Origin: Desulfovibrio gilichinskyi
GTDB lineage: Bacteria; Desulfobacterota; Desulfovibrionia; Desulfovibrionales; Desulfovibrionaceae
Direction of reading: 5' to 3'
Length of the DNA stretch: 64,000 nt
Assembly: GCF_900177375.1 (NCBI RefSeq)
Contig: NZ_FWZU01000002.1
Location: 186,001-250,000 of the forward strand
Shown here in pieces: positions 52,320 through 59,870 of this stretch. The position numbers and the translations under genes were made by a program. The notes under the pieces are model-generated. The model was not told the DNA's origin. It did no database searches and saw nothing but the letters and a program-made list of their open reading frames with translations. The number at the start of each line of letters is the position of its first letter. Position 1 is the first letter of the stretch.

Positions 52320-55300
52320 TTAACTTTTTTTAACAGAATTAACGCTTAAATTCAGTTTTGGAGCAAGAAGAATATGATTCCCTTTATTGTTGAGGATTAC
52401 CGGGCAGTATCTGCCCATGCACTCCTGATTGCTGTCCATTTGGGAGCAGACCATATGCTTGTCTGCCGTAATACGCAAGCCAAGAATTTCCTTTGACACC
52501 TTCGCCGCGGCCTGAAGAGCCAGCCACGAGTCCCGCTGACAGCATCTTGCTGCTTTGATATCTGCAATTAATTCAAGAGCAGCAAGGGTTCCCTTCTGCG
52601 CAGTCGATCGTGAATCAGGCGTCAGAGGAGTTGCTTCAAGAATAGCACTTATTGCGACACCCACCCCTATGGCGGCTCCGCATATTCCCATAAATCCGCA
52701 GAACCCTCCAGCTATTTTGGCTCCGCGTGAAATAGCCGTTTCAATTACTTTGTCACTTATTTTTCCGCCGCTGTTGCGATAAGCGGCAACAATAATCCCC
52801 GGAACCAGCGCGTGGTGTTCCGGACCATGCATAGGAATCGCCGGATGGTTCCTAATTTTTATGAGAAGATCAACCATATCCGTTTCTGTACTGCTTATAA
52901 GGATATGCGGCAGGACTTCCAGTCCGTCTTCGCTGTGGCATTTATCGCAGACAAAGTGGTTGTTTTCGCAGCAACTGTTGGCTTCATGTTCTTCTCCGCA
53001 GAATGCACAGATCTTTTTTTCATATTCTGTCCGATATGTCAGTTCCGCTCCGCAGACCATACAGCCTGTTGTATTCTTCATGCTGACAACGTGTCCTGCA
53101 GATGGCAGAACAGACACTGCTGTATCAGCAGGTTTATCAAATGAATCAGGAGTAGGGCAGCAGCAGGATGATCCTACCATCATATTAGATATGTTGCCGT
53201 CTCCATCAAGAATAAAGACTTGATCTCCAAGTTGATGCGCTTCTTCTTCAGGGACTTCAGTAATGGTTCCGGGGACAAGTAATTCACCCTGCGCAGTCTG
53301 CCCCGTTGCAAACGGACCTCTGAACATGATTCTTGTCATCTTTTCTGTGGACGGTTTGCGAGCTGAAAAGGTCAAAGAATAAAAGTCATGTCCGCCGACT
53401 ACTCTGTATGGAAAACGTTTGAGCATAAGGATTGATTTGAATCCGGCTTCGTCCAGCAATCCTACAAGATTTTTAATGGTCTGTGCTCCGGCGATGCATT
53501 CACCGTGCAGTGTGTCGTCATTACGGATTTCAGGACCGGGTTCACTTTCGCAAACAACGTCCGAGATAGTCAGTCTGCCACCGGGTTTCAAAACCCTGAA
53601 CATTTCAGAAAAGGTTTTACGCTTGTCACCGGATAGATTCAGCACACAGTTTGAAAGCAGCAGGCTTGCATAATTATCTTCGAGCGGGAGAGATTCTAGA
53701 TATCCTTTGCGAAAGTCCATGTTGTCGTAGCCCAGATTTACCGCGACCGCTTGTTTTCCGCTGCGTGAACGGGCCAGCATGGGATCAAGCATATCTATTC
53801 CGGTTACTTTGCCTGAAGGTCCGACCATTTTAGAGGCTATGAAACATTCAATTCCGCGTCCGCTGCCAAGGTCTACAACGTATTCGCCGGATTTGATCTC
53901 TGCGTCCATAACAGGAGATCCGCACCCGTATCCACGGAACCTGAATTCTTCAGGTATGTGGTCCATCAGCTCTGGCGCGTAGCATGCTGGATTCAGGATG
54001 TCTTCTTTGGCCGTATCAGCCGCCGCAGTATAAAAATCTTTTACGATAGTAAGGCTGTCTTTACCGGCAACCGCTAACAGGCAGTTGGTATGGGTCAGAG
54101 CCACCTTACCGTGGTCTGAACATTTATCTAATCTGTCGCCCATTTTGAGCAGTAACCTTGGTGAATCATGGTCAGTGCTTTGTGCCGCTTTGTCTGTGAT
54201 AAGTTTCAGAGCTGTTTTTTCATATAACTTGGCGTATGGGTCTTTTCCTGTAAATTCTCCGCTGTGCATCCAGCTGTGATCAGTATCACCGCCGCCCAGA
54301 AGCAGTTTAAAAGGCGTGGAAAGATCTTTGCATGTTGTTTGGCGAAGAGCGGTCAGAACAGGACTTTTTAGCCAGCTTTCTTCGAGGTTCGCATCAATAG
54401 GAGTACCAAGCGCATCAATACCGACAGTGGCCGGTGAAGGGTAGATTTTGTTGTCAGGCCCGATGGCAAGTGACTCCCATCCTGCGGTAGATCCATCATG
54501 AATGGTCCCGCAAGGCGCAAAGATCATGCTCTTGATTGCTTCTATATTGTCGATTGTTACTCCGGTGCGCTCACTTGCTTCCATTGCTTCAAGCAGGTGA
54601 GTGTAGATGGTCTCCGAATCAACAAATCGCTGTGCTTTTCCTCTTCCGCGCACGAAATACCACATGAAATGAACATTAGAAGCTCCGGTCTCGGCTGCAA
54701 ATTCGATTACTTCTTTCATCTGCGTAACATTAGACTTTGTAACACACATGGAAAGTGTAAACGGTATTGATTCGGCTGAAAGCCAGTGTAAGGACTTTTC
54801 CAGAGCCGCAAACATGCCCTGTCCTCTGATTTCATCATGTGTATCTTTGATGCCGTCTACACTGATCTGCAGGTGGCAGCGTTCGAAATCGTAGCGGTGT
54901 TTTGAGAAGAATTTTTCTGCATTAAGGCCGTTGGAAAGGATTGCCACATGGCTTGACTCTATTTCCAGCATTCTTGTGATAATTCTATCTGCGCCCGGGT
55001 GAATCAGCGGTTCTCCGCCGGTAAGAGCAAAAAGTGTACACCCCAGTTTTTCAGCCTGTGCGGTAAGCTCAAGGACTCTTTCGGTAGCAAGTTCAGAAGT
55101 AGATGATATAGTCGGTGATGATCCGAACAGGCAGTGATTACAGCTGATATTGCACTTATTTGTCAGGTGGAACCAAAGCTCACGGAGATTGCCTGTTTGC
55201 AGCAGTTCTTTTCTGCCGTGGTAGGTGGTAGTTGCTTCATCCGGCAGCCGCATAAGAAATTTTTCTTCGGCAATAGATAAACAACTGTTTTCATCTAGAG

Positions 55301-55424
55301 ATAATTTTCGGAGAAGTTCGTCACCTGCTTTCGTAGGAACAAACCAGTCTGGTGATTCCGGTCTGATATAAACAGGGGTGTTGCCGTGTGTGATTCTAAC
55401 CCATTCGGTAAGCTTAAAAGGCAA
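52320..55424 (-). CDS. Radical SAM / ArsM-like methyltransferase / DUF5714-like fusion protein
   Basis: 1034 residues. Residues ~80-330 are a radical SAM domain with Cys91, Cys95 and Cys98 (NKCNISCNHCLF), then GGEPL and SVDGIKDTHDEIRG. Residues ~455-680 resemble arsenite methyltransferase ArsM: YGCGSP, VVDLGSGRG, GKVTGIDM, FRKGYLESLP, SNCVLNLS, VLKPGG, with Cys481, Cys593 and Cys643 at the places of the three arsenic-binding cysteines. From ~785 follow zinc-like cysteines (CMVCGAEL, CAFCGEEH, CCENNHFVCDKCH) and a helical domain I relate to DUF5714. The start is TTG at 55424 with GGAG eight bases upstream. It may modify a thiol- or metalloid-containing substrate. Confidence 0.8.
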   Translation of the reverse strand: MPFKLTEWVRITHGNTPVYIRPESPDWFVPTKAGDELLRKLSLDENSCLSIAEEKFLMRLPDEATTTYHGRKELLQTGNLRELWFHLTNKCNISCNHCLFGSSPTISSTSELATERVLELTAQAEKLGCTLFALTGGEPLIHPGADRIITRMLEIESSHVAILSNGLNAEKFFSKHRYDFERCHLQISVDGIKDTHDEIRGQGMFAALEKSLHWLSAESIPFTLSMCVTKSNVTQMKEVIEFAAETGASNVHFMWYFVRGRGKAQRFVDSETIYTHLLEAMEASERTGVTIDNIEAIKSMIFAPCGTIHDGSTAGWESLAIGPDNKIYPSPATVGIDALGTPIDANLEESWLKSPVLTALRQTTCKDLSTPFKLLLGGGDTDHSWMHSGEFTGKDPYAKLYEKTALKLITDKAAQSTDHDSPRLLLKMGDRLDKCSDHGKVALTHTNCLLAVAGKDSLTIVKDFYTAAADTAKEDILNPACYAPELMDHIPEEFRFRGYGCGSPVMDAEIKSGEYVVDLGSGRGIECFIASKMVGPSGKVTGIDMLDPMLARSRSGKQAVAVNLGYDNMDFRKGYLESLPLEDNYASLLLSNCVLNLSGDKRKTFSEMFRVLKPGGRLTISDVVCESEPGPEIRNDDTLHGECIAGAQTIKNLVGLLDEAGFKSILMLKRFPYRVVGGHDFYSLTFSARKPSTEKMTRIMFRGPFATGQTAQGELLVPGTITEVPEEEAHQLGDQVFILDGDGNISNMMVGSSCCCPTPDSFDKPADTAVSVLPSAGHVVSMKNTTGCMVCGAELTYRTEYEKKICAFCGEEHEANSCCENNHFVCDKCHSEDGLEVLPHILISSTETDMVDLLIKIRNHPAIPMHGPEHHALVPGIIVAAYRNSGGKISDKVIETAISRGAKIAGGFCGFMGICGAAIGVGVAISAILEATPLTPDSRSTAQKGTLAALELIADIKAARCCQRDSWLALQAAAKVSKEILGLRITADKHMVCSQMDSNQECMGRYCPVILNNKGNHILLAPKLNLSVNSVKKS

Positions 55425-55499: not shown

Positions 55500-56177
55500 T
55501 TAAAGCAGGGTTTTTGCCAAAACCATTACCTCAACTTTTACAGCTCCGGCCTTAATTAATGTACGGGAGCATTCGTGAATTGTCGATCCGGTCGTATAGA
55601 CATCGTCAATCAGCAGAATTGTTTTACCTGCTATGATTGATTTATCTGCCGTAAAAGCATTTTTAAGATTATCGGCGCGTTTTTCTTTGGAAAGTTTGGC
55701 TTGCGGAATGGTTTTACGATTTCTTACGAGTGCACGGTCAGAAAGCTTTGCACCTAAAATTGTTGCAACACTTTCAGCTATGATGAGGCTCTGATTAAAG
55801 CCTCTTTTGCGCAGCCGTGACGGATGCAGAGGAACCGGAATAATAATGTCAGGCCGCATTGTTTCAGGAATAGATTCAGCAACACTTGCTGCGAATTGTG
55901 ATAGTAATGAGCTGTACCCGAAGTTGTTATTAAACTTCCAGTCTATGATTAAATCGCGAAGCAGTCCTCTGTACGGCGCGTAAAAGTAAATATCCTGTTG
56001 CTTAGCTGTTTCATCATGTTCAGATTCATTGATGATTATATCGTAACAGTCAGGGCAAAGGAGTTTTTTATTTGAATGAGGAGTATGGCATACTGGGCAT
56101 CTTTTTTCTGTAAAGAGAGACTTCAGTCGCTCAAATACGGCGATCGGCGAAAAATATGAAATAAAACCGGATATCAT
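55500..56177 (-). CDS. comF: ComF-family amidophosphoribosyltransferase-like protein
   Basis: 225 residues. An N-terminal four-cysteine zinc motif (CPVCHTPHSNKKLLCPDC) precedes the phosphoribosyltransferase fold with VLIDDVYTTGST (written ILLIDDVYTTGST here). ComF family members act in DNA uptake or related processes in many bacteria and may bind nucleotides. It lies four bases after the response regulator, so it is probably the last gene of a three-gene operon. Confidence 0.88.
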   Translation of the reverse strand: MISGFISYFSPIAVFERLKSLFTEKRCPVCHTPHSNKKLLCPDCYDIIINESEHDETAKQQDIYFYAPYRGLLRDLIIDWKFNNNFGYSSLLSQFAASVAESIPETMRPDIIIPVPLHPSRLRKRGFNQSLIIAESVATILGAKLSDRALVRNRKTIPQAKLSKEKRADNLKNAFTADKSIIAGKTILLIDDVYTTGSTIHECSRTLIKAGAVKVEVMVLAKTLL

Positions 56178-56181
56178 AAAA

Positions 56182-56565
56182 TCAGTGAGAATCGGTTAAC
56201 TTTGAAATTATTTTAGTCAGCTCTGTTTTTATGATCGGCTTAAGCAGAAAGCTGTTGTATCCACAATTCAGACATTTGGTGAGCAGCTCTGCATCGTCAC
56301 CTGTGGTCATGGCAAAAACAGGTATAGTCATCCCTTCATTTCTGATTCTGGAAACTACTTCTGTTCCATTCATCTCTGGCATGTGAACGTCCATAAACGC
56401 TACGTCAAACTTTTCAGTGATGAGTTTCTGAAGGGCTTCAGTGCCGTTCTCAGCAAGAGTCGGTTCAAATCCAAGTTGTCCCAGATATGTTTTAAGTACA
56501 AGCCGGACAGGACGTGAATCATCTGCAACTAAAATTTTTAATTTTGATAAATCTTTACAACTCAT
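56182..56565 (-). CDS. Single-domain response regulator
   Basis: 127 residues from ATG 56565, which has AAGGAG nine bases upstream and overlaps the stop of the preceding gene (ATGA). It is a receiver domain: acidic pair DD in LVADDSRP, phospho-acceptor Asp in VAFMDVHMPEMNG, Thr/Ser in AMTTGDD, Lys in FLLKPI. No output domain is present, as in CheY-like proteins. The cognate kinase is not in the window. Confidence 0.88.
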   Translation of the reverse strand: MSCKDLSKLKILVADDSRPVRLVLKTYLGQLGFEPTLAENGTEALQKLITEKFDVAFMDVHMPEMNGTEVVSRIRNEGMTIPVFAMTTGDDAELLTKCLNCGYNSFLLKPIIKTELTKIISKLTDSH

Positions 56566-57164
56566 GCCTGAAGGCTCCTTTTCCATGCGTCTATTCCAGC
56601 CTGAATCAAAATCCCACATTTATCAGGTTGACTCTTAAGGTCGTTCGGAAAATCAATTCCCTTGAAAGTAATAGCAGGTTCAAGGGATGTTTTAAAATAT
56701 TTAAGAAAATATTTCAGTGAAAGTTCCGCCCCTTCGAACAGCTTTTCGCCCTTGGGCCTTCCTGCCACAAAGCATGCGTAAGAGTGGCGATCAGCTAAAT
56801 TGTTAAATAGAGGTGCAGACTGGCTGCTCGCTTCAAAAGCCCACTGCCCGCGGTCTATGAATGTTTTGAGCCGCGAAGGAAGGTGGTAAAAATATATGGG
56901 CGAGGCAAAGAAAGTGAACGGTGCATGGATAATTTTAAGGTAAAGATCCTGCGCTTCATCTTTGGTTGCAAAAATACAAAGATTGTCCTTTGATGTGCGG
57001 CATTTCAGACATCCAATACAGTGGTGTAAATCTAAATCACCTAGAGTAACTATTTCTGCATTCCCTCCGGCTTTTCGAATACCTTTAAGAAAAAGGTTTG
57101 CAGCTAAATCGCTGTTTCCTTTTCTGTGATGACTGCATGCAAAAATAACCGGAGGTTGTTTCAT
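56562..57164 (-). CDS. Iron-sulfur flavoprotein (NADPH-dependent FMN reductase family)
   Basis: 200 residues. Flavodoxin-like fold with FACSHHRKGNSDLAANLFLKG (FMN phosphate loop) and HCIGCLKCRTSKDNLCIF, the compact cysteine motif that holds a [4Fe-4S] cluster in ISF proteins, followed by ASPIYFYHLPSRLKTFIDR. It should carry electrons between ferredoxin-like donors and unknown acceptors. It is translationally coupled (ATGA overlap) to the response regulator. A selenoprotein candidate lies just upstream on the same strand. Confidence 0.88.
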   Translation of the reverse strand: MKQPPVIFACSHHRKGNSDLAANLFLKGIRKAGGNAEIVTLGDLDLHHCIGCLKCRTSKDNLCIFATKDEAQDLYLKIIHAPFTFFASPIYFYHLPSRLKTFIDRGQWAFEASSQSAPLFNNLADRHSYACFVAGRPKGEKLFEGAELSLKYFLKYFKTSLEPAITFKGIDFPNDLKSQPDKCGILIQAGIDAWKRSLQA

Positions 57165-57182: not shown

Positions 57183-57461
57183 TTAAGTTTCATTTTTGTC
57201 GTTCGCAAGATTTTCATCTGAACGTTTGCCCCGCGCATATTTGCACGTAAAAACAGATTTTATATGGTCGCCTTTATCCTGAATTTTAAGTGACCATTCA
57301 GGCAATATTTCCAGTTGGTGATACAACTGCAGTTCCGTGCCCTTATCAGTCAGAGCAATTACTTCTTGAGTCTTAGCAAAACGGAGATACCAACCTACCT
57401 CCAGTCCGACTCCTCAGCACTTGTTACGGATGTCTACTGTTCGTGAATTGTTATTATCCAT
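57183..57461 (-). CDS. TusA-like selenoprotein candidate (in-frame UGA as Sec16)
   Basis: 92 codons from ATG 57461 to TAA 57183 with one in-frame TGA at codon 16 (57414-57416). The product begins MDNNNSRTVDIRNKCU and goes on GVGLEVGWYLRF; the D-x-R-x-x-x-C pattern of TusA/SirA/YedF sulfur carriers puts the Sec exactly where the catalytic Cys normally sits. Later LPEWSLKIQDKGDHIKSV fits the C-terminal TusA strand. A SECIS-like hairpin follows the TGA at the same distance as in E. coli fdhF. Without Sec it would be two useless fragments. It may handle sulfur or selenium; the last ~20 residues are basic and extra. Ribosome-binding site AGGA. Confidence 0.72.
57368..57416 (-). promoter_or_regulatory. 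Bacterial SECIS element after the in-frame UGA
   Basis: Counting from the base after TGA, GGAGGTA (12-18) pairs with TATCTCC (25-31) around loop GGTTGG, so the GGU motif is at 19-21, as in the E. coli fdhF SECIS. An outer GAGTC/GACTC pair (57408-57412 with 57368-57372) extends it. Confidence 0.72.
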
Positions 57462-57567: not shown

Positions 57568-58191
57568 TTAAAATTGCATGTCACTGAAAAAAGGATTGTG
57601 ATTTTTCTCTTCTGCGACAGAAGTTGACGGGCCGTGTCCTGATAAAAGAGTGGTATTCTCCGGCAAAGTAAAAATATTTTCCTGAACTGACTTTTTAAGC
57701 ATATCAAGATCTCCGCCGGGGAAGTCTGTCCTGCCTATGGAACGGCGGAAAATTAAATCACCGACAAAGGCTGTCTCAAGAGCAGGGAAATGAAAGGTCA
57801 AACTGCCGGGAGCATGCCCTGGTGTAGAAAGAACATTACATTCAAGTCCGACCATCTCAGTCTTGCCGATTTTAATATGCTCTGACTTGAAAGGAGCAAC
57901 CTTTATACCGATCATGCTGCCGTCGCCTAACGGTGTATTCATAAGTGAAAGACCGGACTCATCAGCGTATATGGTTTTGCCAGTGGCTTCTGCAAGAGCT
58001 GCGTTCCCAACAATGTGATCGAAGTGCAGATGTGTGTTCAGAATACTTTCCAGTTCAAATCCTGATTTCTTTAAAAAAGCAAGTACAGCGGTAGGATCTC
58101 CGCCTGGATCAATTACAACAGCTTTATTGTCATTGGTGATTACGTAACAGTTTGTTTCAAGGGGACCGAGAGCAAATGCTTTAATATCCAT
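57568..58191 (-). CDS. MBL-fold hydrolase (glyoxalase II-like)
   Basis: 207 residues. NTHLHFDHIVG is the metal-binding HxHxDH motif, followed by VLSTPGHAPGSLTFHFP and GDLIFRRSIGRTDFPGG, then LLSGHGPSTSV, all as in short GloB-like hydrolases. Two metal ions (zinc or iron) are expected. The substrate may be a thioester such as hydroxyacylglutathione-type compounds, but many relatives hydrolyse other thioesters. Transcribed alone on the minus strand. Confidence 0.9.
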   Translation of the reverse strand: MDIKAFALGPLETNCYVITNDNKAVVIDPGGDPTAVLAFLKKSGFELESILNTHLHFDHIVGNAALAEATGKTIYADESGLSLMNTPLGDGSMIGIKVAPFKSEHIKIGKTEMVGLECNVLSTPGHAPGSLTFHFPALETAFVGDLIFRRSIGRTDFPGGDLDMLKKSVQENIFTLPENTTLLSGHGPSTSVAEEKNHNPFFSDMQF

Positions 58192-58310: not shown

Positions 58311-58901
58311 TTAAAACGGTACACCTCTAAAGACATTAATTTTGTTGACCGCATTGTCAAATTCGCTCGGATTCAGTTCGTTATCTAGGTCAGCATCGAA
58401 ATCTTTAAGGTTCACTTTCAGCTGAATCGCTTCTGCTTCTTTTGCGTCAATTTTACCGTCTTTGTTGAGGTCCGCCTCGTCAAAGGTGGGGAGAGGCTTT
58501 TTGATTTCAGAGTCTTTTATAATAGCACATTTAATATGGCGACCGTCATCGTCAAGGGTTACATCAATGTTTGCACCCGGCTCGATATAGAGCTTTACGC
58601 AGGTATCTCCTGACCATAGATCAAGCCCGTTTTTATCTTCAAGTGCCAGTTTTATTTTGGCTTTGTTTCCGTCTTTGTCAAAGCAGTCTTTATTATAAAG
58701 GGCATTGCAGGTGCAGTCTGTAATTGTACTGGCCTTTACTCTGCCGAATTCAAAACCGTTGCTTTTGCCCCATACTCTAAGCACGTTGCCGGTATGATTG
58801 ATTACAGTGAAAGTTTTTGTCTGCGCCATAGCAGACGGGGCAGTGTAAAGAATAAGTCCTGCGAGTAAAATAAAAATTATTGAAAGTCTGCTAAGCTTCA
58901 T
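58311..58901 (-). CDS. Exported EF-hand protein
   Basis: 196 residues. A signal peptide (LSIIFILLAGLILYTAPSAMA) is followed by a beta-rich domain with two disulfide-capable cysteines (CTCN...CFD) and two calcium-binding loops: DLNKDGKIDAKE and DADLDNELNPSE. It probably binds Ca2+ in the periplasm or outside the cell. The role is unknown; the beta domain with NHTGNVLRVWGKSNG could be a binding module. Confidence 0.75.
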   Translation of the reverse strand: MKLSRLSIIFILLAGLILYTAPSAMAQTKTFTVINHTGNVLRVWGKSNGFEFGRVKASTITDCTCNALYNKDCFDKDGNKAKIKLALEDKNGLDLWSGDTCVKLYIEPGANIDVTLDDDGRHIKCAIIKDSEIKKPLPTFDEADLNKDGKIDAKEAEAIQLKVNLKDFDADLDNELNPSEFDNAVNKINVFRGVPF

Positions 58902-59600: not shown

Positions 59601-59624
59601 TGAAAATTATACGCTAAAGCTTCT

Positions 59625-59719
59625 CTCATGGTCCCTATACAGGAGGCATTGGCACCTTGCTGTACACAGCAGGTTGCCGGGTGGTCGACAGGCCAGATCC
59701 CTCGCACCCTCTTCATGAG
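59625..59719 (-). ncRNA. SAM-I (S-box) riboswitch
   Basis: On the minus strand P1 CTCAT/ATGAG encloses GAAGAGGGTGCGAGGGA, CTGGCC, CCCGGCAACC, AAGGTGCCAAT and the P3/P4 stems, matching the SAM-I aptamer consensus (AGAG, GGCAACC, AAGGTGCxAA). It senses S-adenosylmethionine and is followed by a terminator. The usual targets are methionine or sulfur genes, but here the next gene is a small unknown protein. Confidence 0.93.
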
Positions 59720-59870
59720 TATGATTGTAAAAAAGCTTCAATAAATTAACTGCTTTTGAACAATATGTGTTGTTATTTGTAAATCAAAGAACGTAAAGGA
59801 TAGGCTATTACTGCTTTGCCGTACCGTCAATAAGTTTTTTTGTTAAAATGTTAAAAAATATTATATCCTT

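Follow-up and report, generated by a model that had tools for sequence, protein, structure and literature searches.

A probable selenoprotein of the TusA fold with a vicinal cysteine–selenocysteine pair in Desulfovibrionales

A Small Gene With an In-Frame TGA and Its Surroundings

The locus lies in a stretch of 64,000 nucleotides from Desulfovibrio gilichinskyi, which is called the window throughout. The following features carry the argument:

57183 to 57461, minus strand: gene of a selenoprotein, very probably of the TusA fold; ATG at 57461-57459, TAA at 57185-57183, 92 residues, selenocysteine at residue 16
57414 to 57416, minus strand: in-frame TGA at codon 16, almost certainly read as selenocysteine, within the motif D-I-R-N-K-C-U-G; conserved in relatives
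57383 to 57402, minus strand: putative SECIS hairpin with a 7-bp stem; counted from the TGA, the GGT of its GGTTGG loop occupies bases 19-21
56562 to 57164, minus strand: FMN reductase-like flavoprotein with the motif C-x2-C-x2-C-x7-C (FMN_red match over the Pfam cut-off); next gene downstream, usual neighbor
57568 to 58191, minus strand: MBL-fold hydrolase, GloB-like by a library match below the NCBIfam cut-off; upstream, frequent neighbor
55500 to 56177, minus strand: presumably a ComF-like phosphoribosyltransferase; frequent neighbor

An earlier note on this DNA had proposed a frame of 92 codons with its own start and a TGA at codon 16 and had named no strand: the frame is present on the minus strand, and a plus-strand reading of 57183-57461 is ruled out by three in-frame TGAs. 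While 92 codons precede the stop codon, only 15 do so if the TGA is taken as the stop. With the TGA translated as U, the protein reads MDNNNSRTVDIRNKC-U-GVGLEVGWYLRFAKTQEVIALTDKGTELQLYHQLEILPEWSLKIQDKGDHIKSVFTCKYARGKRSDENLANDKNET, and AGGATGGA, a putative ribosome-binding site by inspection, stands directly 5' of the ATG. Annotation software that treats TGA as a stop would overlook this very small gene.

Conservation of the TGA and of the Hairpin That Follows It

The gene was found in 28 of 40 near genomes, the host counted in, and each of the 28 copies contains the in-frame TGA, preceded at all 28 loci by the identical pattern D-x-R-x-x-C. In a sample of 247 genomes from the whole order, an order of sulfate reducers, 141 gave a match: the TGA form spans 140 of them, its position being confirmed by eye in the fetched loci, a subset of these 140, and a single genome (G471) has a stop-free form only. 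A second, weak stop-free match occurs in 7 of the 140. Among the 73 distinct TGA proteins that were aligned and placed, an Asp lies six residues N-terminal of U in all 73 and a Cys immediately N-terminal of it in 72; the triplet at this site is CUG in 67 proteins, CU plus another residue in five, and GUG in one, L164 from G520, where Gly-Sec replaces Cys-Sec. Six distant stop-free relatives (L153-L158), most of them with the motif [VC]-C-G-L-[VM]-P, come from genomes that also hold the TGA form; they were set aside as Cys orthologues, as none of the four operon neighbors lies within 6 kb. A seventh stop-free candidate (L159 from G593) gave no match in the later comparison.

An alignment of relatives displays protein-like conservation on either side of the TGA. 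Between 17 genes of the genus, compared in 136 non-independent pairs, the differences before the TGA number 573 at third, 176 at first and 128 at second codon positions; past the hairpin the respective numbers are 2765, 1209 and 895. The protein changes fast in this latter part: compared with 16 congeners, the window gene differs in 3-18 synonymous and 7-18 non-synonymous codons out of 37. Beyond the order, a scan of the phylum gave matches in 6 of 395 genomes, all from the family of D. gilichinskyi itself and none outside the order. A narrow scan of a species-level genome collection with one peptide pattern returned 35 loci; wherever a title indicates the order, family or genus, it points to Desulfovibrionales.

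The hairpin had been described in the earlier note with a 7-bp stem, a GGTTGG loop and the GGU at bases 19-21, and the sequence bears out each of these details. Its arms comprise bases 12-18 and 25-31 after the TGA (57402-57396 and 57389-57383), the loop GGTTGG corresponds to 57395-57390, and the letters GGAGGTA-GGTTGG-TATCTCC include one G-U pair within the 7-bp stem. The GGU takes the position that it also has in the SECIS of E. coli fdhF. RNA structure prediction adds an outer stem, whose pairs vary, both for the window gene and for many related genes.

Because the encoded peptide EVGWYLRF is itself conserved, the hairpin was assessed by synonymous recoding, whereby each gene was rewritten 300 times with synonymous codons of local or pooled usage. 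The stability of the hairpin exceeds that of the recoded versions with a mean z of -2.55; of the 87 distinct genes tested, 68 reach p<0.05 and 80 reach p<0.1. Outright loss of the GGU loop in close relatives, which the earlier note had considered, was not seen: nearest to it come the 7 of 87 genes with a weak or altered hairpin and p>=0.1 (L119, L132, L140, L150, L163 and the genes of L023 and L025). Across 78 distinct 48-mers, in-register pairing holds for 509 of the 546 stem cells, versus 209-378 when the arms are slid by 1-3 bases. The changes in the stem are coupled: A16, which belongs to an Ile codon, is accompanied by T27 in 24 of 24 cases and G16 in 20 of 54 (p 3e-8, relatedness ignored), and bases 18 and 25 covary as A-T (52), G-C (6), A-C (2) and G-T (1) (p 3e-6, relatedness ignored). 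This loop-closing pair is non-standard in 19 of the 78 sequences (C-C in 11, C-T in 6, A-C in 2). Judged from these sequence comparisons, the hairpin after the TGA is under selection as RNA.

Selenocysteine Machinery and a Cysteine Replacement

The host genome encodes the machinery that recoding would call for: it carries selA, a selB scoring 386 bits (cut-off 242) and a tRNA-Sec scoring 80 bits, for which ARAGORN gives the anticodon TCA. Within the order, selA occurs in 217 of 247 genomes, in 215 of them over the cut-off; it is present in 137 of 140 TGA carriers versus 80 of 107 other genomes (Fisher p 3e-8, relatedness ignored). The three TGA carriers lacking selA (G604, G470, G480) are fragmented assemblies in which selB and tRNA-Sec score over their cut-offs.

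The one genome with a stop-free form only, G471, encodes a Cys form at the same operon position: its motif D-L-R-Q-A-C-P-C has C-P-C for C-U and thus one residue extra. The assembly, which is 85% complete, gave no selA match, a best selB match of 92 bits against the cut-off of 242, and a best tRNA-Sec match of 46.8 bits (gathering score 47) that is a tRNA-Leu. Its two sampled congeners, G474 and G031, have the TGA form along with selA, selB and tRNA-Sec. As G471 combines the lack of Sec machinery with a Cys form, loss of Sec and replacement of Sec by Cys coincide here, in a single case.

The product of the window gene almost certainly carries selenocysteine, as far as sequence evidence can tell. 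Most of what the earlier note had said on this point, or had recommended for scrutiny, holds: the pattern D-x-R-x-x-C-U around the TGA is kept across relatives; random stops in orthologues are not seen, and the TGA together with codon-level conservation persists across the order; selA, selB and tRNA-Sec are all in the host genome; and alternation with Cys is represented by the one orthologue with its extra residue, L153-L158 not being counted. Its Sec call is supported by the conserved TGA, the coupled stem changes, the Sec machinery and the one Cys replacement. That the TGA is a true stop, with the gene being decayed or consisting of two short genes, is very improbable. A degenerate-looking member with a weak hairpin, L163 from G551, would fit such a reading; against it stand the retention of the TGA with both flanks across the order, the excess of third-position changes on either side of the TGA region, the selection on the hairpin, the Sec machinery and the Cys replacement. 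Chance or decay as the source of the TGA is ruled out by its presence in 140 of 247 genomes, the hairpin test and the third-position excess.

Predicted Fold and Relation to TusA

Sequence searches do not place the protein in a family: at E<=1 the window protein has no match to any model of Pfam or of NCBIfam (release of June 2026 for the latter), and for 20 family members (set A1) the library matches are scattered, at E 0.07 or weaker, with none to TusA/PF01206. A sequence search of solved structures had a best E of 0.026 and returned nothing useful. The catalytic motif of TusA, C-P-x-P, which is seen in the TusA domains of relatives that were examined, is absent; CUG stands instead in 67 of 73 proteins.

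An AlphaFold2 model built with 35 aligned sequences reached a mean pLDDT of 85.4 and a pTM of 0.74, the ten-residue blocks from 11 to 70 lying at 91-97. Its strands (6-10, 33-38, 56-62, 67-73) and helices (18-28, 43-52) follow the order E-H-E-H-E-E, and the model thus predicts a beta-alpha-beta-alpha-beta-beta fold as in the TusA family. Among the best 50 of 1151 Foldseek rows, a probability of 1.00 is assigned only to TusA from the IscS-TusA complex (3lvj_C, TM 0.59/0.69) and to TsuB (8j4c_A and 8k1r_A), with query TM values of 0.58 for 8j4c_A and 0.64 for 8k1r_A, the latter at an rmsd of 1.8 and the highest query-normalized value in these 50. The Smr domain of MutS2 follows at 0.99, and SirA-like 3hz7 and YhhP 1dcj at 0.98. 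No Foldseek match reaches E<=0.001, and the first by E is SpoVS with a TM of 0.35. A profile comparison by hhalign with 18 TusA domains from relatives yielded a single-comparison P of 0.0007-0.0008 and a probability of 10% in global and 27% in local mode; the forced global alignment sets U on the catalytic Cys of TusA, the local one leaves U uncovered.

The earlier claim that the TGA occupies the catalytic Cys position of TusA/SirA-type carriers is supported by the predicted fold and by the forced global alignment; the missing Pfam match and the missing CPxP speak against it. Given the lack of a Pfam match and the low hhalign probability, we speak of a TusA fold and a TusA-like position and not of a member of PF01206. 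The TusA assignment had been ranked below the Sec call from the outset, and at hhalign probabilities of 10-27% this order is unchanged. With these qualifications, the model supports a single-domain protein of the TusA/SirA fold; by alignment, Sec takes the place of the catalytic Cys within the loop that leads into helix 1. Taken together, we consider a selenoprotein with a TusA fold to be very probable.

Neighboring Genes

In 58 of 71 distinct members with sufficient flank, the flavoprotein gene lies downstream in the same orientation, at most 150 bases away, and the residues of its product C49, C52, C55 and C63 are invariant in 32 of 32 cluster sequences. Of 68 distinct members, 50 have the MBL hydrolase upstream at a distance of up to 1500 bases, and ComF is found downstream in 54 of 66; a nitroreductase-like gene, named by inspection, is located within 2500 bases in 40 of 64 and is absent from the window. 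Adjacency of the ComF-like gene probably reflects synteny and not function. Thirteen of the 71 members, including all five titled Solidesulfovibrio, have no adjacent flavoprotein. Conversely, nine fetched loci, chosen from genomes with a strong flavoprotein match and no TGA gene (G036, G434, G438 and G446 being among those left out), hold the flavoprotein without a selenoprotein match, together with the MBL and ComF genes in all nine, the order being kept, and with the nitroreductase in eight. These two observations rule out an obligatory link to the flavoprotein and leave a frequent one. As the neighbors were compared inside one order, part of it is shared synteny. At E<=1e-40, matches to the profile of the flavoprotein turn up in 216 of 247 genomes; this number probably includes paralogues and is thus no measure of co-occurrence with the selenoprotein.

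Three further features of the window were recorded. On the minus strand, 52320-55424 encodes, with no in-frame stop, a protein in which a radical SAM domain is joined to an ArsM-like methyltransferase and to DUF5714; its DUF5714 part also matches the MbdU selenoprotein model. A SAM riboswitch (RF00162, 67.3 bits) occupies 59623-59721 (minus strand). The product of 58311-58901 (minus strand) has a signal-peptide-like start by eye; its matches to EF-hand models stay under the Pfam cut-offs, and in NCBIfam it weakly matches lanmodulin.

Proposed Mechanism and Alternatives

In the mechanism that we propose, SelB and tRNA-Sec would decode the TGA at codon 16, aided by the hairpin directly 3' of it. 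The selenol of the Sec residue could make the attack and then bear the sulfane sulfur or selenide, after which the adjacent Cys would resolve the adduct as a Cys–Sec selenenylsulfide, releasing the reduced product. Re-reduction of the Cys–Sec pair would require an electron donor of low potential, for which the neighboring Isf-like flavoprotein is the probable candidate in most genomes, and a TusA-like carrier would in this way be converted to a reducible relay. We put forward this relay chemistry, comprising the carried sulfur or selenium, the resolution by Cys and the re-reduction by the flavoprotein, tentatively and with slightly less than even confidence.

Its main rival is a plain thiol–selenol oxidoreductase, in which the vicinal Cys–Sec pair shuttles electrons and carries neither sulfur nor selenium. 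Animal thioredoxin reductase has such an electron-shuttling pair in its C-terminal Gly-Cys-Sec-Gly. A CU pair, which 72 of the 73 distinct proteins possess, would be expected of such an enzyme, as would the flavoprotein next door with its four invariant Cys and the nitroreductase-like gene that is often nearby; the GU member L164, however, fits a monothiol-type carrier better, and the predicted fold resembles sulfur carriers, with no thioredoxin among the best 50 of 1151 Foldseek rows. We take electron shuttling as a serious possibility but lean against it. Improbable, in our judgment, is the lesser rival that the Cys–Sec pair binds soft metals or metalloids with the radical-SAM/ArsM/DUF5714 gene as its partner. 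Metal binding has likewise been suggested for some other selenoproteins, and the fused gene at 52320-55424 lies in the window itself; yet a gene of this fusion cluster occurs within 8 kb at 7 of 87 context loci, some of them short-flanked, and the frequent neighbors are not metal genes. The same count rules out a general partnership with the radical SAM/ArsM/DUF5714 gene.

A Second TusA-Like Family With an In-Frame TGA

A PF01206 search of relatives brought to light a frame with a TGA (L190) and thereby a second TusA-like TGA family, which is represented in the host outside the window at G000:C2:104017-104232 on the minus strand (L207; members L203-L220). It occurs in 18 of the 40 near genomes with one TGA each, and its motif is [WC]-x-x-C-U-x-G-[FL], mostly CWxDC-U-xGF. 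A hairpin follows the TGA in the predicted structure of 18 of 18 members. At the two loci inspected, the gene is adjoined by a gene that looks like a TauE/SafE-type permease. When five members were compared with the Pfam TusA model, one reached 27.7 bits (E 2e-6) against a cut-off of 28.6, and another 12.6 bits; the same five had just two weak NCBIfam matches, both of one member and to unrelated models. A profile comparison of the second family with that of the window gave a probability of 0.6%.

That a single lineage has two TusA-like families with Cys–Sec makes it more plausible that such carriers have a selenium branch. At least two independent TusA-like Sec families might exist in Desulfovibrionales in which the Cys–Sec pair makes a sulfur or selenium carrier reducible and allows a flavoprotein-driven relay for sulfane sulfur or selenide beyond the reach of ordinary TusA; we offer this as a conceivable generalization that we hold with considerable doubt. 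If it is true, sulfur-carrier chemistry gains a selenium branch, which annotation would so far have missed owing to the near lack of Cys homologues.

Comparison With Known Systems

TusA-type carriers deliver sulfur as persulfide for tRNA and cofactors and to dissimilatory sulfur metabolism. With TusA/SirA/YhhP (PF01206) the window family shares the predicted beta-alpha-beta-alpha-beta-beta arrangement, the single small domain and the D-x-R ahead of the active site; it differs by Sec in place of Cys, by the vicinal Cys ahead of it and by CUG instead of CPxP. The best query-normalized TM-score among the best 50 of 1151 Foldseek rows belongs to YeeD/TsuB (8j4c, 8k1r), the TusA-like partner of the thiosulfate transporter YeeE/TsuA; no transporter, however, is found among the frequent neighbors of the window family, and the solved TsuB contains Cys and not Sec. 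The neighboring flavoprotein, with its FMN_red match and a C-x2-C-x2-C-x7-C motif whose Cys are invariant in 32 of 32 sequences, resembles the iron-sulfur flavoprotein Isf, a comparison in which the cluster and the activity of the partner are putative. The SirA-like protein linked to SelD is of the YedF type and uses Cys; the host genome also encodes a CPQPV protein in a 209-aa frame.

A tie between a SirA-like protein and selenium through selD, with a SirA-like domain fused to a DsrE-like domain, is described in the part of PMC2432076 consulted. The likeness to the window protein consists in a TusA-type domain connected with selenium use; the window protein differs as a standalone domain with Sec in its own chain. 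Cys directly before Sec also occurs in the CU-motif selenoproteins MbdU, SaoL, SaoC, HgcA and KCU-star, which in Table 1 of the 2026 review PMC13188914 are assigned to other domains, none of them TusA/SirA. By the count of the review itself, this table comprises 119 families and subfamilies, with rhodanese and DsrE entries present; it has no entry for TusA or SirA, and neither word occurs in the parts of section 7 that cover it. A Salidesulfovibrio genome was among the material of the deep-Sep paper, yet no such protein appears in Table 3, where that paper presents its new families; the Salidesulfovibrio member of the present set (L072) is from a different species. Every new selenoprotein reported there, in the parts consulted, has Cys-containing homologues. 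As Sec is almost the sole form in the order sample, the family would tend to escape any search built on Sec/Cys pairs.

Within the consulted parts of PMC13188914, PMC12013277, PMC2432076, PMC9312934, PMC1914089 and PMC11097638, and of the families of Haft and Tolstoy 2025 as given in Table 1 of PMC13188914, the window gene probably represents a Sec family that has not been described before, that of a TusA-like carrier in which Cys and Sec are adjacent and whose gene often stands beside one for a four-cysteine flavoprotein. According to section 7 of PMC13188914, the system that donates selenium to SelD is incompletely elucidated. Sec at the reactive site of a carrier fold that is not named among the 119 families of Table 1 would constitute a new use of selenium.
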